From positions 8,223,127 through 8,287,126 of the forward strand of contig OX422185.1 in assembly GCA_949130485.1 (NCBI GenBank): 64,000 nucleotides of DNA, written 5' to 3'. This DNA comes from Agelas oroides (taxonomy: Eukaryota; Porifera; Demospongiae; Agelasida; Agelasidae). The position numbers and the translations under genes were made by a program. The number at the start of each line of letters is the position of its first letter. The first letter of the stretch is position 1. This document shows positions 56,160 to 64,000 of this stretch, piece by piece. Under the pieces are notes generated by a model, which saw nothing but the letters and a program-made list of their open reading frames with translations, made no database searches and was not told the origin of the DNA.

Positions 56160-56733
56160 CTAAGTAGCACCCAGCAGTACCTAACGGAAAAAGTTACCCC
56201 TGTTTAGGAATATAAATTTAATACTGCTAAATTGGCAAATTAAAAAAAAATACACATCATCCAAAACAAATTATATTCTTAACAATACAATGGGTTCAGA
56301 TTTCAAAATCATGAAAATGATGAAACCGTAACATTGGGAGTGTTTAGCGTACATGTCAAAAGCTCAAGAACTAGCCTTGTTCCCAGGACCTCCTCACTTT
56401 AAGAATGGAAAGAGGAGAAGATCCCCGATTTGCGAACGCGTTTCTAGAATGAAGTTGGCTGTGATAGCTCACGTGAACATTATTTTCACAGGTTCTATCA
56501 ATTCCACAAACGTGTTTACATGTCTGTGTATACACATTTTGAAAAGTTCTATAATGCATTATTTCAGTGTATACACATTTTGAAAATAATGTCTGCTATA
56601 CATGTGTAACCTCAAGAAACATTAGAAGTGTAAAAAGTGTTCACAGGCATTGGATGTTACAAATCCAAATAGGGTTCACAGGGCAAACATATCTGCAATA
56701 TAACTTTCACAAGTGTAAAAACATGTTCAGCTA
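56160..56733. other. AT-rich intergenic stretch with a possible repeat remnant
   Basis: I see no convincing gene. The part around 56374-56450 has the phrase CCTTGTTCCCAGGACCTCCT, of a style seen in dispersed repeats of marine invertebrates, but I cannot name an element. A CACGTG E-box core lies at about 56470-56475. The 56640-56730 part already contains scattered GTTCACA words and leads into the 60 bp minisatellite. Missing upstream exons of the BEN-like gene could lie here. Confidence 0.4.
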
Positions 56734-57769
56734 GTGTTCACAATTCAGAAAATGTTCACAAATGTCGATTGATCACATGCTTAGTAACTCTAAACAGTGT
56801 TAAACAGTGTTAAACAGTGTTCACAATTCCAGAAAACGTTCACAAATGTCGATTGATCACATACTTACATGTACTCCAAACAGTGTTCACAATTCCAGAA
56901 AAACATTCACAAATGTCGATTGATCACATACTTACTCTAAACAGTGTTCACAATTCCAGAAAACGTTCACAAATGTCGATTGATCACATACTTACATGTA
57001 CTCCAAACAGTGTTCACAATTCCAGAAAAACATTCACAAATGTCGATTGATCACATACTTACTCTAAACAGTGTTCACAATTCCAGAAAACGTTCACAAA
57101 TGTCGATTGATCACATACCTACTCTAAACAGTGTTCACAATTCCTGAAAACATTCACAAATGTCGATTCTACTCTAAACAGTGTTCACAATTCCTGAAAA
57201 CATTCACAAATGTCGATTGATCACATACTTACTCCAAACAGTGTTCACAATTACAGAAAACGTTCACAAATGTCGATTGATCACATACTTACTCCAAACA
57301 GTGTTCACAATTACAGAAAACGTTCACAAATGTCAATTGATCACATACTTACATGTACTCCAAACAGTGTTCACAATTCCAGAAAAACATTCACAAATGT
57401 CGATTGATCACATACTTACTCTAAACAGTGTTCACAATTCCAGAAAACGTTCACAAATGTCGATTGACCACATACTTACATGTACTCCAAACAGTGTTCA
57501 CAATTCCAAAAAAACATTCACAAATGTCGATTGATCACATACTTACTCTAAACAGTGTTCACAATTCCAGAAAACGTTCACAAATGTCGATTGATCACAT
57601 ACTTACTCTAAACAGTGTTCACAATTCCAGAAAACGTTCACAAATGTCGATTGATCACATACTTACTCTAAACAGTGTTCACAATTCCAGAAAACGTTCA
57701 CAAATGTCGATTGATCACATACTTACTCCAAACAGTGTTCACAATTACAGAAAACGTTCACAAATGTCA
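56734..57769. repeat. 60 bp minisatellite, about 17 units
   Basis: The unit begins AAACAGTGTTCACAATTCC, continues AGAAAACGTTCACAAATGTC and ends GATTGATCACATACTTACTC. Unit starts lie at about 56812, 56878, 56939, 57005, 57066, 57126, 57176, 57236, 57296, 57362, 57423, 57489, 57550, 57610, 57670 and 57730, so spacings are 60, 61 or 66 bp with one shortened 50 bp unit. The 66 bp form carries an inserted CATGTA-type stretch and tends to alternate with the 61 bp form, giving a 127 bp dimer. Each unit holds two GTTCACAA-like words about 19 bp apart and one TGATCA palindrome. A 10 bp step (TAAACAGTGT) is tripled at 56791-56820. Open frames here of up to 119 codons on the plus strand come from the unit being a multiple of three and have no support as genes. 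Confidence 0.95.
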
Positions 57770-57948: not shown

Positions 57949-58121
57949 TTAGGGAGTCTTTGAACAAATACATGGTAGCCTTTGCTTTTTGCTTGGCCTT
58001 CGTTTGTATCCTAGACATTTCCAGTGGTACCAGCGGGTACACAGGTCACAACCAACCCACAGATTGTCCTCCCCCTCTTGAAATTTCTGCTTGCACACTT
58101 GGCACTGGTCTTCGTCTATAG
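57949..58121 (-). other. Last exon encoding the PHD finger
   Basis: The exon supplies C880-x2-C883, C898-x2-C901, H906-x2-C909 and C924-x-C926, a C4HC3 zinc-binding set with the W-x-G-C-D-x-C and W-Y-H-x-x-C phrases typical of PHD fingers, which read histone H3 tails. The last pair is C-x-C instead of the usual C-x2-C. The protein ends four residues later. Two acceptors six bases apart are possible, so residues A874 and I875 may be absent. Confidence 0.85.
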
Positions 58122-61100
58122 CTAGAATGGAATAGGAAATATTCTTTAACATACAAGTTGAAAGAGCTTGACTGTTATGGTATATACCTAAATCTTGATG
58201 ACCTGTCTGTCTTTGTTTGGCAACTCTCAGTGACTGCCGCTTTGAAAGTGTCTTCAGAAATTCATTAACTTCTATAAGAAATGAGGCAAAGAACATCAAA
58301 GATTGTAGTACATAATGGTGGTAACACTGTATACACACCAACAGCTCTCCTTGACATGCGGATTCCTGGGACACTCAGTTGTTTCTTCCTTAGCAAGCGG
58401 TAGCATTTTATTGGAGTGCTTACAGAAGGAAGGGAACGTTGATGGCGCTGTTTACACTTATGCAGCAAACGTCTATTTCCCGGTGACAATGACAGATGAT
58501 AAATGGCACGAGCCTGGTAATCATCATCACCTATGCAGAATATTCAATACATAATCATGTGCTATGGAAGTAGACCTAGTTATTGGCTGCATGATGATAA
58601 ACAAAAACTTTTGTAGAAACACAAATTGTGATATATTGTTCCTACAGTCTATTTAGTGAGGTGACAAAGACATTTACATGGTAAGTACTTACATGACTGT
58701 GTCAGGACATGGCCATGAGTGATGTTAGCCTCCTTGCGTTTAGCAACTGTTTAAAAATCGAAATGACTGTGAATATCTGTTGACAATATTACAATGACAT
58801 TTCTCAGCAAACCTGGCATAACAGCGCCACTGAACAATGTACGCTTGCATGCCACACCCTTATCGCTTTCATTCCCTGTAGCTAAAAGCAAAAAGCAACA
58901 CCATAGTGCACACAATTAAGCGTTGGAAAAAGGAAAATTCACCTGTGTCTTCCATGGACATCTTTTGCAAACTTTCAGATGTTGCCTCACCAACTGGGAG
59001 CACACTGGCTGCACCAATTGATACAGAATGAACAACTAGTGGGCTGACTGATATAGTTGGATAGTGAGTTTCAGGAATAAGAGGTGATTGTTCAGGATTG
59101 GGGCTGTTGTGGATCAACACTGGTGTGCCACAGATGGAGGAAGCTCCAGGGGTAATAGAACCTATATACATACATTATAAATGTGAGAAAGAAGTGATGA
59201 ATTTGTATATGCATGACAATGTGAACAGCTTACCTTGTTTCCTTTTCTTTTTGTTTCTCTTGCTCTTCTTCTTTTTCTTCTTCTTTGCTGTAGTGTACAT
59301 TCAAGGAAATGCAGATTTTAAAATTTATTTCCTTTTTTTTTTAATGAGCCTAACTGCACCCCAAGTGGATAGAAAATGGTAACCTGAATGCAGATGAATT
59401 GAATGCAGGTGGATAAATCAGCTTGTCCTGTCATGAATAAGTCATCAAGCTAACCCACTAGCTACGCATAGTGTGGAAGCCTGGCTAGATTAGGGCAAAA
59501 GTGGAACAGGGAACGGGGAATCAGGGTTAGGTGCACAACCCAGCTTCCAACAATAAGCATAGCCATTGCATGTAGAGTGAAATGAAGCTTACATGAACAC
59601 TGTCTAAGACCAACAACAGGTGCTAATTGGTGGTAATTGAAGCCATGTATAGGCGAGATGATACAAAGGAAGCCAGCTAGCTGGGCAGAAGATGGCCATG
59701 CTACTATTGTATGATTTATATCTGAGTTGTGTGTGAATATAACATTCAACCATAAGTATACCTTTCAATTCATGACAGCATGATGTAAATTCCCAAAGTC
59801 CAGTGCTTGAGTCTGGATGTAAAGGTACATTCTTGAAATGAACAGATTACTGTAAATAGGTTTATGGATGTCATGTATACCTTCCATGTTGTCGTCTTCT
59901 TGTATTGTGAGGTGCACTTCATGCACTACAGTAAAATGTAGTACATCACTCATTTTGCATAGATGATTTTCATTATTTATACCTGATTTTTCAGCTGTGG
60001 CATGATCAGGACTCACTCCTAAAGAGGGTGAACATGCATGCAATTGTAGATATTGGAGGCCTGTTGTATATATCCTGTACTATACATCACTGTCATATAT
60101 ACCTTCAACCTCATCATCCTGTAAGTCTGGTGTCATCTTCTGCCCATCCTGAAGCATGTCAAAGATCTCCTGTGGGAATTCATCAGCAGGAACACACACA
60201 CAAGTCAAACATCGAACGCTACCCTCATCATTCCGGTCAATCGTCGTCTTGGCGGACCCAACAACATTAAAATATTGCTTCTTGCGGGTGTCGCATCTTG
60301 GGTGACCACGTAGTCTTTGGCGGATTTTACTTTCTCCATCATGCTGGATGTTGTACTTATCAATTGCTCGCACAAACTCCTTGAGGCTGATAGCAACGCC
60401 TTGATATCGTGTCTTGTCAGCTGTTGATGGATGACCAGTGTGAGTTGTGTAGGACACACTAGGGTTGACAACCTGCAATACCTGTGAAACAATCAAATTT
60501 AACACTGAGCCTCACTTATAGAATGTGATCATGGTTACCTCTGAAAGGGGGGCAGCTTGTACAAATGCCAATGTTAGAGTTCCCAGTGTCATCTCTTTAG
60601 GAGCTTGCTGGCCCTGCAACTCGAGCACCTCGGGAGCAATGACCTCTTGAAAGTACTCCCAGACTGCTTCTGCATTCACCTTCTTGTAACATGCAATGCT
60701 GACTAGCTGTATATCAATTTTATTACATAATAAACCATCTGAGAGACTTCACTAATTAGCATGAATCCTCACCTTCTGTGCACACAAAATGGTCAGAGCA
60801 TACTGGGTTGCCAGTCTTGATTCCAGTTTCCCAACAGCACTCGTAAGGAGACTGTCCCGCATGTTGCAGACAGTGTCCTCATCAACCCCTTCAAGCCATT
60901 TCCCAACAGCAAGGAGCTTGGGGAATGCTGCTGGAGCATCCTGCAGCAATTGGTGAAGCACCCTAAGCTCCACGTGGGATGCTTGAAATTTGAAGGGGAT
61001 TAACACTGCTCGCACAAGGTACCTGTGTAAACAGTCGTGTATGGCACAGGGTGAAAAGGGAAACAAAATGTGATATTTCATTGGCTTTTGCCCGCATATC

Positions 61101-63546
61101 CCATTTAGGATACAGCATGCTTATCAAACATTTGGCTGTATATCCTATACAGGATATGTGTATAACAGCCATTGAAATATTATGTACACAAGGCAAATGC
61201 ATTCTTCATCCAGTAAGAAAGACAACAAAATTGTTTTGAATTGATCTACAAAGAGTACCTGGCCTCAGCAAGGGATAACTGTTCCATGACGTGTTCATTC
61301 GCTGTTATTAGTGGTGTGCATCGTGCATGGAACTGGCGGTGCTCAGTTCCCATTCCTGCCCCACCAAACGCATTGATCAGGAACTGTTTCACCAGCTCTG
61401 CATTCTCAGGATCGTCGTATGCAAATGGCAATGCCCCGCTAAGGTACCTTCTGGCCATACTGTCAGTTAGGCATGTTTGATATCCCTTAGGGTAATTGCA
61501 GCAGGCTGCCAGAGATAGCTTCACAGCAATACTCTTGCCTCGACTGACCTGTCCATATGCTATGTGGATTGCCACAGATCCACACATGGTCTGGATACTC
61601 TCATAGCATAGAGAGAGGACAGCACCGCCTATACATATAAAGTGATTTCCAATATAAATTACTTGATTGTCTTTTGGATTATGCAGGATCTGTAATTTTA
61701 GTATACTGACACTCACTTAGCATGAATACAGCACTGATAAAATTATCACCACACGCTCCATACATGCCCTTCAAAACCCTCCTTAGGGGGTGGTGGACAT
61801 TTGGAAAGGTGCTGAGTGGGGCAGAGATTTTGTCCACATGGAGTTTCCGAAGAATCTCTGGGATCCAAACGTATTCTTGCTGCTCAACAGGGATTAGGGT
61901 CCCATCACTGCTGAACTGCAGCTCTGGCCCAATGACGATTACGTCCGAACCAGGTTGTCGCCCAGTGCATGTAACTGGTTTATACTGAGTGACACCTGAG
62001 TCATCAGATTCAGAATCAGAACCTGTTGAACTAAACATTGAAACAATGCAGTATTGTAAATTTTGTCACTTGCATTTGTCATAATTGTTTTGTGAAAATT
62101 TAATAAGGACTGCTACATAACAATGCAGGAAATGACATAATGCATTCGTAATAATGTGGTTCAAGAAGAATTAAAATTTGAATGATTTCAAGTGTGAATG
62201 ATCAATGATGGTGTGTGGATTTTACCCACTGGCAGTGGTGTAACTAGGGTGCATACATTGGTGTGGCTTTAATATGAAAGTGTACAAAGCAAGTGAATGT
62301 AGGGGGGTCTGGGGGCATGCTCCCTGAGGAACATTTTGATATCTAGCTATATGCTCTGAGATTGCTTCTGGTGGCTTCTGAGACTGCCTTTACTCATTCT
62401 TGAGAAAGTACATTTTCTGTTGCTGAGGGTCTGCTGTGAAGCTCTTTTTATAGCTGAACAGCATCTCATTGCAAGACGGACGGGACTCCAACGTTGAAGC
62501 AGCCATCTAAAGTCAAGCACTAGATCGCCTAGGAACGATGAATGCGTGCATTATTATGTCACGCACAATCAGCCACTCCTACGTGGCACTTTAGTTAATT
62601 GAACTATATGACCGAACCCTTGGATACACTGCTGCCCACTGCATGGGTAATGTATGTACTAGTTTGTATTATACCTGCAGGTGAAGTAAACCATCTTTAA
62701 TGGCCTGTAAGTCTTTCCATTGCTGTAAACTTACTGTAAACGACTCAAAGTTTAAAGTTTATTGCAATGGAAAGACTTACAGGCCATTAAAGATGGTTGA
62801 CTTTTAATGCAGTACTGCAAATAGCCACAACAATAATTATTTTAGTGTTGCTGCAATTTGCAGTGGTGCAGTGCAGCAATGCACTTAGTAAAATGTCAAA
62901 TCTGTGTTCATCATGCACTGCCCAATTACAATTTATCACGCCCATTTGGGCAGTGATACCCCCATATTTTAGGCATAGGAATAAAGATGAAAAAAGATTT
63001 TGGTACAACAATTTAACCATAGTAACCATGCATAGTAAGTACTGCAATCATCCTTCGCAAAAACAGCTCATGCATGTGCTTGGCGGAATACACAGACCTA
63101 GCTATACAACTAGGCATAAAACTTCAAAACTTACAACAGTTCCTCCCATTTCTGCATCAGCATTTCCTTGATCTGAGAGGGTGACAACTGACAGCTCAGT
63201 ACGCTGTCGGGCATTGCAGCTCCCAGTGTTGCGCGCAGTTGGTCGCTATTGCAGATGTGGTACCACGGCAGGAAACACGATCTGAATATCAGATTACCAT
63301 GGACAGTAATGCAAGTATCGAGCAGTTGTAAAGACAGTGTATTGACACTGACCCTTCTGTAATTCTCTTCCCACTCGGTTGCGTCACCTTCACAATGAAG
63401 CCGGCGTAATCTGGAAGCTGTTCTGGACTGCGCACAAACTTAGTGAACTTCATTGCAAAATTAGTCAAAGGAACGAATCTTCTACTCTCTCCTTTCCCCT
63501 TCCAGTATCCCATGCGAGAATCGTACTGCACAAGATCCTTCCCCAT
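57949..63546 (-). CDS. Predicted 17-exon P-loop (SF3/DUF927-like) ATPase with C-terminal PHD finger
   Basis: Exons read by eye: 63546-63353, 63281-63135, 62030-61717, 61628-61259, 61022-60773, 60706-60539, 60481-60103, 60018-59983, 59925-59881, 59812-59762, 59287-59234, 59161-58943, 58875-58813, 58746-58693, 58530-58339, 58271-58188, 58121-57949. All introns are GT-AG and every phase fits, giving 930 residues. The ATG has G at -3 and +4, and an in-frame TAG lies upstream. In order: an N-terminal region like that preceding DUF927-type ATPases (about 1-113); an acidic serine patch (115-125); Walker A GQVSRGKS (244-251), a Walker B-like FAYDD (287-291) and LITAN (325-329), the SF3 motif-C or sensor-1 position; a helical region to about 481; a lysine-rich patch (652-669); and a PHD finger (880-926). 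Expected role: an ATP-driven nuclear, chromatin-reading protein. The reaction and partners are unknown. The donor of exon 15 is the least certain join, and two acceptors are possible for exon 17. Confidence 0.8.
59234..59287 (-). other. Lysine-rich mini-exon, likely nuclear localisation signal
   Basis: The 54 nt exon has an acceptor after TACACTACAG and a GTAAGC donor. It encodes 18 residues of which 15 are lysine or arginine, including seven lysines in a row. It enters and leaves in phase 1, so it can be included or skipped without changing frame. A basic stretch of this kind is a classic nuclear import signal or nucleic-acid contact. On the plus strand it appears as a low-complexity CTT-rich stretch, so it would be easy for gene predictors to mask. 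Confidence 0.6.
61259..61628 (-). other. Exon encoding the P-loop ATPase core
   Basis: This single 370 nt exon (residues 219-342) carries all three nucleotide-binding signatures. G244 to S251 forms the Walker A loop. D290 and D291 follow a hydrophobic stretch, as in Walker B. N329 follows a hydrophobic stretch, as in motif C of superfamily 3 helicases. R342, spanning the exon end, could serve as an arginine finger, but this is speculation. Spacing between A and B is about 40 residues and between B and C about 38, which is compatible with an SF3 or D5-like core and shorter than in most AAA+ proteins. Confidence 0.7.
62236..62350. repeat. Probable dispersed-repeat remnant in intron 2
   Basis: The phrases TGGTGTAACTAGGGTGC and GGGGGGTCTGGGGGCATGCT are of a kind that recurs in dispersed, mostly non-autonomous elements of marine invertebrates. 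I recall the style and cannot name the family. No terminal repeats or coding capacity are visible. It helps explain why this intron is 1.1 kb while most others are below 100 bp. Confidence 0.45.
62684..62803. repeat. Long near-perfect hairpin in intron 2
   Basis: Arms 62684-62723 and 62764-62803 are inverted copies of 40 nt with one mismatch, of which 35 nt are perfect (62689-62723 against 62764-62798). Between them is a 40 nt spacer whose outer part adds about seven more pairs after a small internal mismatch, leaving a terminal loop of about 20 nt. No clear target-site duplication flanks it. It could be a foldback element or a small-RNA precursor within the intron. Confidence 0.85.
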
Positions 63547-63746: not shown

Positions 63747-64000
63747 TTATGGTTTCTTAGGCAGAATGGGTTTACGACCAAACTGATAGCATCTAGCAGT
63801 GTACAGATTACGTCTCAGTACCATTCGGTGCAAATAAAACAAGTGGTGATTCTTAGTCATTGAACATAATATGCGCTTATATCTACCAACCCATGCAAAA
63901 GTCTGTTCTCCACTTTGGGTATTGAAGTGGGGATGAGTTTCCTTAAACTGAAGTGGACTAAACTGTTCCCTACAAGTTGCACTGATGTGGTTTGGAAAAT
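63747..64000 (-). CDS. KDZ-like transposase-family protein, C-terminal exon (partial)
   Basis: An open frame enters from the right edge and ends with TAA at 63749-63747, giving 83 residues. It includes HFNTQSGEQTFAWVGRYKR, then MTKNHHLFYLHRMVLRRN and a basic end GRKPILPKKP. The N-T-x-x-x-E-Q-x-F-x-W phrase, followed by an H-H-L-F-Y-L-H-R-M phrase, is what I remember from the C-terminal part of KDZ-type transposase relatives common in sponges and cnidarians. No break is visible in the part shown. It may belong to a DNA transposon or to a domesticated copy; the window does not decide. Its stop lies 201 bp upstream of the start of the P-loop/PHD gene, on the same strand. Confidence 0.5.
   Translation of the reverse strand, partial: FPNHISATCREQFSPLQFKETHPHFNTQSGEQTFAWVGRYKRILCSMTKNHHLFYLHRMVLRRNLYTARCYQFGRKPILPKKP

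Follow-up and report, generated by a model that had tools for sequence, protein, structure and literature searches.

What kind of gene joins a P-loop ATPase to a PHD finger in a sponge, and what would the resulting protein do? The question is raised by a 64,000-nucleotide stretch of the Agelas oroides genome (assembly GCA_949130485.1, contig OX422185.1, forward-strand positions 8,223,127 to 8,287,126), hereafter the window, in which a multi-exon gene on the minus strand, here called gene 2, appears to encode both modules. A preliminary description made from the letters of the window had regarded it as possibly of mobile-element ancestry, yet intact and spliced like a host gene. The link to mobile elements holds, whereas the host-like status does not: gene 2 is a gene of a mobile element. 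That element has inverted ends and a partner gene for a KDZ (Kyakuja-Dileera-Zisupton) transposase (gene 1); its sibling copies show target duplications, and some copies are internally deleted. We hypothesize, with about an even chance of being right, that gene 2 encodes the helper of this two-gene KDZ transposon, a putative motor on element DNA whose PHD finger would tether it to nucleosomes, probably H3K4-methylated, and so bias insertion. Below, C and L numbers denote contigs and loci, positions without a contig are those of the window, and positions beyond its end are window-equivalents.

The unit carrying gene 2, which the preliminary description had not noticed, spans 11.9 kb, from 56415 to window-equivalent 68340, beyond the window end. 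A 2-kb piece of gene 2 matched near-identical places on three other contigs (C8, C9 and C17), where most of the unit is repeated at 93-99% identity; the left border of homology lies at 56415 against C9 and at 56412 against C17, homology to C9 extends no further than 68277, and inserts break up the C17 copy. The core CCCSGATTTGCGAACG is shared by the two ends of the element, which form imperfect inverted repeats, and a genome search for this core with one mismatch permitted returned 24 matches, as compared with 1 for the reversed pattern. The matches form nine pairs (on C3, C5, C10, C11, C12, C13, C17, C18 and C20) and six singles, such that one pair brackets the window copy at a distance of 11.9 kb, and the long copies on C8 and C9 retain one end each. 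Exact 8-bp target duplications were found on C17 (AGTAGGAT), on C11 (CTCCTTAT) and at the site common to C10 and C20 (CTCGCGGC), and the duplication on C18 has one mismatched base. Inspection of the short copies on C10, C18 and C20 reveals a left end fused to the interior of exon 2, with the junction at 63218. Because these copies retain part of exon 2, gene 2 lay within the element before the deletion, and the short copies are deletion derivatives. An ordinary host gene was rejected on the grounds that the locus is a repeat unit with inverted ends.

Gene 1 lies upstream of gene 2 on the same strand. One of its exons matches the Pfam KDZ family PF18758 at E 9.1e-6, with 26.0 bits against a cut-off of 26.6 (0.6 under), and the CxC5 cysteine cluster PF18718 is matched at E 4.5e-5, with 24.0 bits against 26.9 (2.9 under). 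Paralogues retrieved from the same genome with the KDZ exon attain the cut-off, for example those at C5:501365 and C9:2776. A KDZ transposase domain and target duplications of the expected 7-8 bp are both found, and on these sequence features the element as a whole is assigned to KDZ.

The order of KDZ transposase, ATPase and PHD finger recurs elsewhere in the genome. A search of the genome with the ATPase core in exon 4 gave 33 matches at E<=0.01, which correspond to 32 loci; for counts of neighbours within 10 kb, 108 KDZ matches were merged to 87, and the 150 PHD matches, scored out of 185 candidates, remained 150. A same-strand KDZ match lies upstream at 12/32 ATPase loci and downstream at 0, and opposite-strand matches lie upstream at 3/32 and downstream at 0. 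The PHD finger takes the other side, being found downstream on the same strand at 13/32 loci and upstream at 0, with one opposite-strand case downstream and 0 upstream. The chance expectation is ~0.05 and ~0.09 per class. When the four near-identical copies are excluded, 9/28 loci have an upstream KDZ and 9/28 a downstream PHD; both neighbours are present at six loci, three of which are outside those four copies. The C17 copy is not among the 12 since inserts place its transposase 14 kb off.

The gene 2 model runs from an ATG at 63546 to a stop at 57949 as a single frame of 915 amino acids. Its 16 exons, where 17 had been claimed, are separated by 15 introns with GT-AG at every border, the final nine consecutive ones all being phase 1. 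The preliminary description of ATPase motifs and a C4HC3 finger in one open chain is borne out, in that the chain holds GQVSRGKS, FAYDD, LITAN, a lysine-rich exon and the finger. The ATPase motifs exceed chance: when 10 relatives are aligned, no variation is seen at G31 and K32 (Walker A), D72-D73-P74 (Walker B), N111 (LITAN) or R124. Homology was followed exon by exon over 26 loci (L030-L055, of which L051 and L054 are one place) with ~1.5 kb on each side, and exons missing there are no evidence of absence since the loci reach no further. The PHD stretch was matched in 3/26 of these loci, once on the opposite strand.

Comparison among copies bears on which of these exons code. For exons 1-7 the nonsynonymous-to-synonymous ratio (pN/pS) comes to 0.53 for comparison with the C8 copy, 0.47 with C9 and 0.22 with C17, as plain ratios from small counts with gaps and the 27 codons absent from the C9 copy omitted, and exon 16 has 2 differences in total over the three copies. 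Hence the ATPase core exons and the PHD exon look constrained, on small counts. The gene 2 model is interrupted by three stops in the C8 copy, one in the C9 copy and none in the C17 copy. A tblastn search with the linker (exons 8-15) against 27 loci gave a single chance-level match (E 7.9), and in a relative on C5 a lysine-rich stretch occurs at least twice at the linker position, as judged by eye with no linker exon alignable. From the open frame, the ATPase and the PHD finger are predicted to be fused in one mRNA and protein.

To which family does the ATPase belong? No Pfam or NCBIfam family matched the ATPase part of the window protein. A distant paralogue, L053, which itself does not adjoin any KDZ match, gave matches to plasmid proteins in tblastn, namely a primase-polymerase of Gloeothece (E 1e-11) and a protein of Nostoc (E 4e-4). 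When profiles were compared with these two plasmid proteins by hhalign, whose E-values are for one pair compared, the whole ATPase family scored 99.3% (E 8.8e-21, 321 columns; reversed control 0.1%), the seven KDZ-linked members by themselves 98.0% (E 1.5e-13, 391 columns) and the window protein alone 81.5% (E 1.1e-5, 374 columns); further controls gave 0.2-0.3% when reversed (E 0.21 for the 391-column comparison) and 0.5% for an unrelated protein. Exon 5 aligned to the plasmid helicases, and GYWKGKG...FVPLTNF of exon 1 aligns with GEIGFWKK...FEPACNF of the Nostoc protein, whereas region C2 (exon 7) alone gave a non-significant 1.2%. On the strength of these profile alignments, residues 1 to 430-450 of gene 2 share ancestry with the helicase portion of DUF927/Cch-like primase-helicases from plasmids, with no primase. 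The protein may thus be an ATP-driven motor.

Domain searches delimit this assignment. The Gloeothece protein has a Prim-Pol domain (E 1.3e-6) and a weak DUF927 match under the cut-off (E 0.0047), the sole match of the Nostoc protein is a weak Toprim (E 0.032), and an archaeal phage primase, H18, combines PriCT-2 with DUF927 at E 0.025. A PHROG primase/helicase was matched in 2/10 members of the gene 2 family (best E 0.012). The Pfam cut-off of DUF927 was not reached, the window protein being unmatched and the best of the 10 members standing at E 0.1. The top profile match in PDB, 5dgk ("active helicase"), which we take to be the SCC helicase Cch, has E 0.1 and is confined to the Walker A region. 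The ATPase had been described as SF3/DUF927-like, with a Pfam search proposed as the check: likeness to DUF927 proteins, as opposed to ordinary AAA ATPases, stands through the hhalign link to plasmid primase-helicases, while no SF3 or D5 family is among the Pfam matches, although HMMER filters discard most weak matches and remote kinship is possible. SF3 membership is rejected on present evidence, given the lack of any SF3 model in the Pfam scans. Scans for the plasmid helicase in genome-contig and viral-contig collections gave pattern matches with no relative confirmed, and among plasmids the same two alone were recovered, with weak matches in phages. An AlphaFold model of exon 4 alone had a mean predicted local distance difference test (pLDDT) score of 49.7 and was not used. 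DUF927 domains have been described from mobile-element helicases, of which one is proven, and Cch resembles MCM (PMC7581432, PMC5862659, PMC7693054).

The PHD finger is confirmed by Pfam PF00628 at E 7.2e-8, with 32.8 bits against a cut-off of 24. In its C4HC3 ligands the last pair is spaced C-x-C, where C-x2-C is usual. The closest solved relatives comprise 18 distinct sequences at E<=0.01, headed by ALFIN-like, TAF3, BPTF and KDM5B, which are presumably for the most part H3K4me3 readers. This similarity suggests that the gene 2 finger may read histones.

Just downstream of gene 2, a subterminal tandem array separates the PHD exon from the left end. The motif TTCACAAATG occurs 17 times in the window, 16 times within the array and once at 56755, and is absent from 64001-68340. 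The 15-mer AACATTCACAAATGT is common to this array (6 occurrences) and to the 48-49-bp array of a diverged copy on C23 (11 occurrences); in 500 shuffled-unit controls the longest match was 12, and 0/500 reached 15. The subterminal arrays could be transposase sites or iterons.

These features can be arranged into a tentative mechanism for the helper protein. The short inverted ends are presumably where the gene 1 transposase cuts and joins the element, a reaction that would leave the 8-bp duplications of the target. The gene 2 protein would most likely form a ring on DNA of the element, plausibly where the iteron-like array lies, and would open or remodel the donor DNA or the ends on behalf of the transposase. 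The PHD finger, in turn, would hold the complex on nucleosomes, probably those methylated at H3K4, which may bias where or when the element inserts. A closer analogy, by which this would be a two-part eukaryotic DDE transposon in the manner of Tn7 or Mu, with a captured plasmid-type replication helicase ringed on the array and a PHD finger that reads H3K4 methylation for the choice of site, appears doubtful to us; were it to hold, the pairing of DNA motor and histone reader in a single transposon protein would amount to a novel sort of target selector.

Several observations weigh against the helper hypothesis. Of the 32 ATPase loci, 20 have no upstream same-strand KDZ within 10 kb (at 3 loci it is upstream on the opposite strand), and some of the paired loci are near-copies, such as C1:5781931 and C21:4599136 with identical scores, so that there are fewer independent cases. 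One of the 13 PHD matches, that on C5, is by itself at chance level (E 7.3), and the flanks of the window copy have no matching 8-bp duplication. A distant ATPase subfamily, defined by 39 of 59 matches that are absent from the list of 33 and correspond to 35 loci, has no same-strand KDZ or PHD within 10 kb, which means that the ATPase is not confined to the arrangement of KDZ, ATPase and PHD; its neighbours within that distance are one KDZ and one PHD match, both on the opposite strand. It was a member of this subfamily that gave the plasmid match at E 1e-11. In the gene 2 family DUF927 (PF06048) reached just E 0.1 in 2/10 members, the generic ATPase_2 did better (2/10, best E 0.0091), exons 4-5 used as a single-sequence query of PDB found chance matches only (E 0.5 and above), and no primase-free helicase activity turned up in this analysis for the ATPase family. 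Lastly, linker exons 8-15 have 15, 7 and 6 nonsynonymous differences from the C8, C9 and C17 copies and 1, 0 and 0 synonymous ones, 28 against 1 in total, at rates close to those of the introns. Because these exons are without coding constraint between copies, the coding status of the linker is uncertain.

An alternative hypothesis is that gene 2 is a replication helicase that, in the manner of its plasmid relatives, loads at the subterminal repeats to let the element copy itself, by replicative or extra-chromosomal amplification, with the PHD finger merely a chromatin anchor. The homologues of gene 2 are plasmid primase-helicases, the 60-bp array is just downstream of the gene, one DUF927 protein is a proven helicase, and the iterons bound by related Rep helicases follow directly after the helicase genes themselves (PMC7581432, PMC5862659). 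However, the scanned parts of both genes hold no primase or polymerase domain, and inverted ends with 8-bp duplications fit ordinary DDE integration, so we regard this function as possible but somewhat unlikely. The intron-like evolution of exons 8-15 and a linker that cannot be aligned to relatives would also suit a different account, in which the ATPase and PHD finger are separate transcripts of one transposon and the fusion is an artefact of exon joining. Against such an artefact are the nine successive phase-1 GT-AG introns with the frame open, a plain count with no chance expectation attached, the PHD finger following the ATPase on the same strand at 13/32 loci, and the recurrence of a lysine-rich stretch in the C5 relative; we consider it unlikely.

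Could gene 2 act on expression rather than on integration? As an anti-silencing factor, it would bind the element's own chromatin through the PHD finger while the motor sustained transposase expression, and a parallel exists in fungal KDZ elements, whose TET/JBP dioxygenases are proposed to counter silencing (PMC12730594). Since gene 2 is homologous to DNA helicases and not to known nucleosome remodellers, this role seems decidedly improbable. Introns, core exons with pN/pS below 1 and the many ATPase loci with no KDZ neighbour could be taken to indicate a host gene, domesticated or a mere passenger, with no part in transposition; its position inside a unit bounded by terminal inverted repeats at several places and the recurrence of the gene order in diverged families of this one genome make that reading very improbable indeed.

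Table 1. Coordinates of the features of the transposon (homologues are counted over the 26 loci described in the text).
Feature	Position	Strand	Remarks
Left terminus of transposon, GAGAAGATCCCCGATTTGCGAACG	56415..56438	.	Core CCCSGATTTGCGAACG common to right end
Subterminal tandem array, 60-bp unit x 15.7	56811..57768	+	Tandem Repeats Finder (TRF); TTCACAAATG and GTTCACAA motifs; iteron-like
Exon 16 of gene 2, C-terminal PHD finger (C4HC3)	57949..58121	-	Stop at 57949
Exons 11-15 of gene 2, linker	59161-58943, 58881-58813, 58746-58693, 58530-58339, 58271-58188	-	GT-AG, phase 1
Exons 8-10 of gene 2, linker	60018-59983, 59925-59881, 59287-59234	-	GT-AG, phase 1; exon 10 lysine-rich
Exon 7 of gene 2 (region C2)	60103..60481	-	Homologues in 11/26 diverged loci
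Exons 5-6 of gene 2, C-terminal ATPase region	61022-60773, 60706-60539	-	Homologues in 6/26, 5/26 loci
Exon 4 of gene 2, ATPase core: Walker A GQVSRGKS, Walker B FAYDDP, LITAN	61259..61628	-	
Exon 3 of gene 2	61717..62030	-	Homologues in 19/26 diverged loci
Exon 2 of gene 2	63135..63281	-	Homologues in 10/26 loci; internal junction site of short copies
Exon 1 of gene 2	63353..63546	-	Start codon; GYWKGKG...FVPLTNF; homologues in 3/26 loci
Gene 1, C-terminal exon, KDZ transposase	63747..64000, on to window-equivalent 64259	-	Pfam KDZ PF18758
Gene 1 exon with CxC5 cluster	near window-equivalent 67486-68142		Outside window
Right terminus	window-equivalent 68340 (C3:8291466)		Outside window

The surroundings of the element and its relatives were also inspected. 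Wnt-family matches at three places, together with one weak match, mark the genome as that of an animal, and so small a number of Wnt genes suits a sponge. The window from 34 to 55361 is a 55-kb satellite array of 41-bp units, which occupies all that is left of the window and continues on the element's right-hand side (L015, L016), and the C8 copy lies near a ~70% similar satellite. Short copies at C10:49793, C18:49859, C20:61414 and C5:11622358 are ~50-60 kb from contig ends; those on C10, C18 and C20 have one target duplication in common, so that a single insertion seems to have spread with a subtelomeric block. At L047 (C23:3237961-3241140) a PHD-like stretch and tandem array are opposite in strand to the ATPase exon, as would result from an inversion of the element's left part. 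Six KDZ matches have an upstream opposite-strand PHD within 10 kb (C5:8131258, C21:4698580, C9:2725, C1:9842050, C22:3374153 and C3:9235091), possibly a second, divergent gene arrangement. Sites of the distant ATPase subfamily include C6:10166717, C7:10403473, C11:8711326, C19:697734 and C19:1222405, some with open frames of 380-451 amino acids and five copies with equal scores; this subfamily may be part of another kind of mobile element. Among the plasmids, L057:1782-5768 and L058:1761-5237 are related helicase parts behind different modules (Prim-Pol in one plasmid, weak Toprim in the other), of a family for which Pfam coverage is sparse.

Cut-and-paste transposons of eukaryotes are generally considered to require little besides a transposase, and the way in which they locate favourable chromatin is largely an open question. 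In the present case, diverged lineages of a KDZ family within one genome have retained a second gene that pairs homology to plasmid-type helicases with a finger of histone-reader type. If the helper hypothesis is true, an animal transposon would carry a bacterial-type replication motor, and chromatin-guided insertion would become testable. No description of an element with KDZ transposase, helicase and PHD finger was found in the open-access literature searched, a search outside of which lie Repbase and most subscription journals.

How does the element compare with systems already described? It resembles other KDZ elements in its transposase domain and has a candidate CxC-type cysteine cluster, both of which score below the Pfam cut-offs in the window element; its target duplications measure 8 bp, as do those of Zisupton and Dileera, as opposed to 7 bp in Kyakuja (PMC12730594). 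Extra modules are on record for fungal KDZ elements (TET/JBP dioxygenases; PMC12730594) and for fish Zisupton (an F-box; PMC12062965). The sponge element differs in carrying a further gene, in which homology to plasmid-type helicases is accompanied by a PHD finger. With the cyanobacterial plasmid primase-helicases (Gloeothece NC_014504, WP_013325793.1; Nostoc NZ_CP091920, WP_237997490.1), gene 2 has in common a profile homology over 391-515 columns from near residue 7, with Walker A, Walker B and the sensor asparagine in the same order; the Gloeothece protein begins with a Prim-Pol and that of Nostoc has a weak Toprim match, whereas gene 2 has no primase and adds a linker and PHD finger. Likeness to the DUF927/Cch MCM-like helicase (5dgk) stays under every curated cut-off, and gene 2 differs from it in being eukaryotic, transposon-borne and adjacent to a PHD exon. 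TnsC of Tn7, MuB of Mu and IstB of IS21 are ATPases of other AAA+ families, and what the sponge element may have in common with them is the logic of a transposase working with a separate ATPase that perhaps chooses the target.

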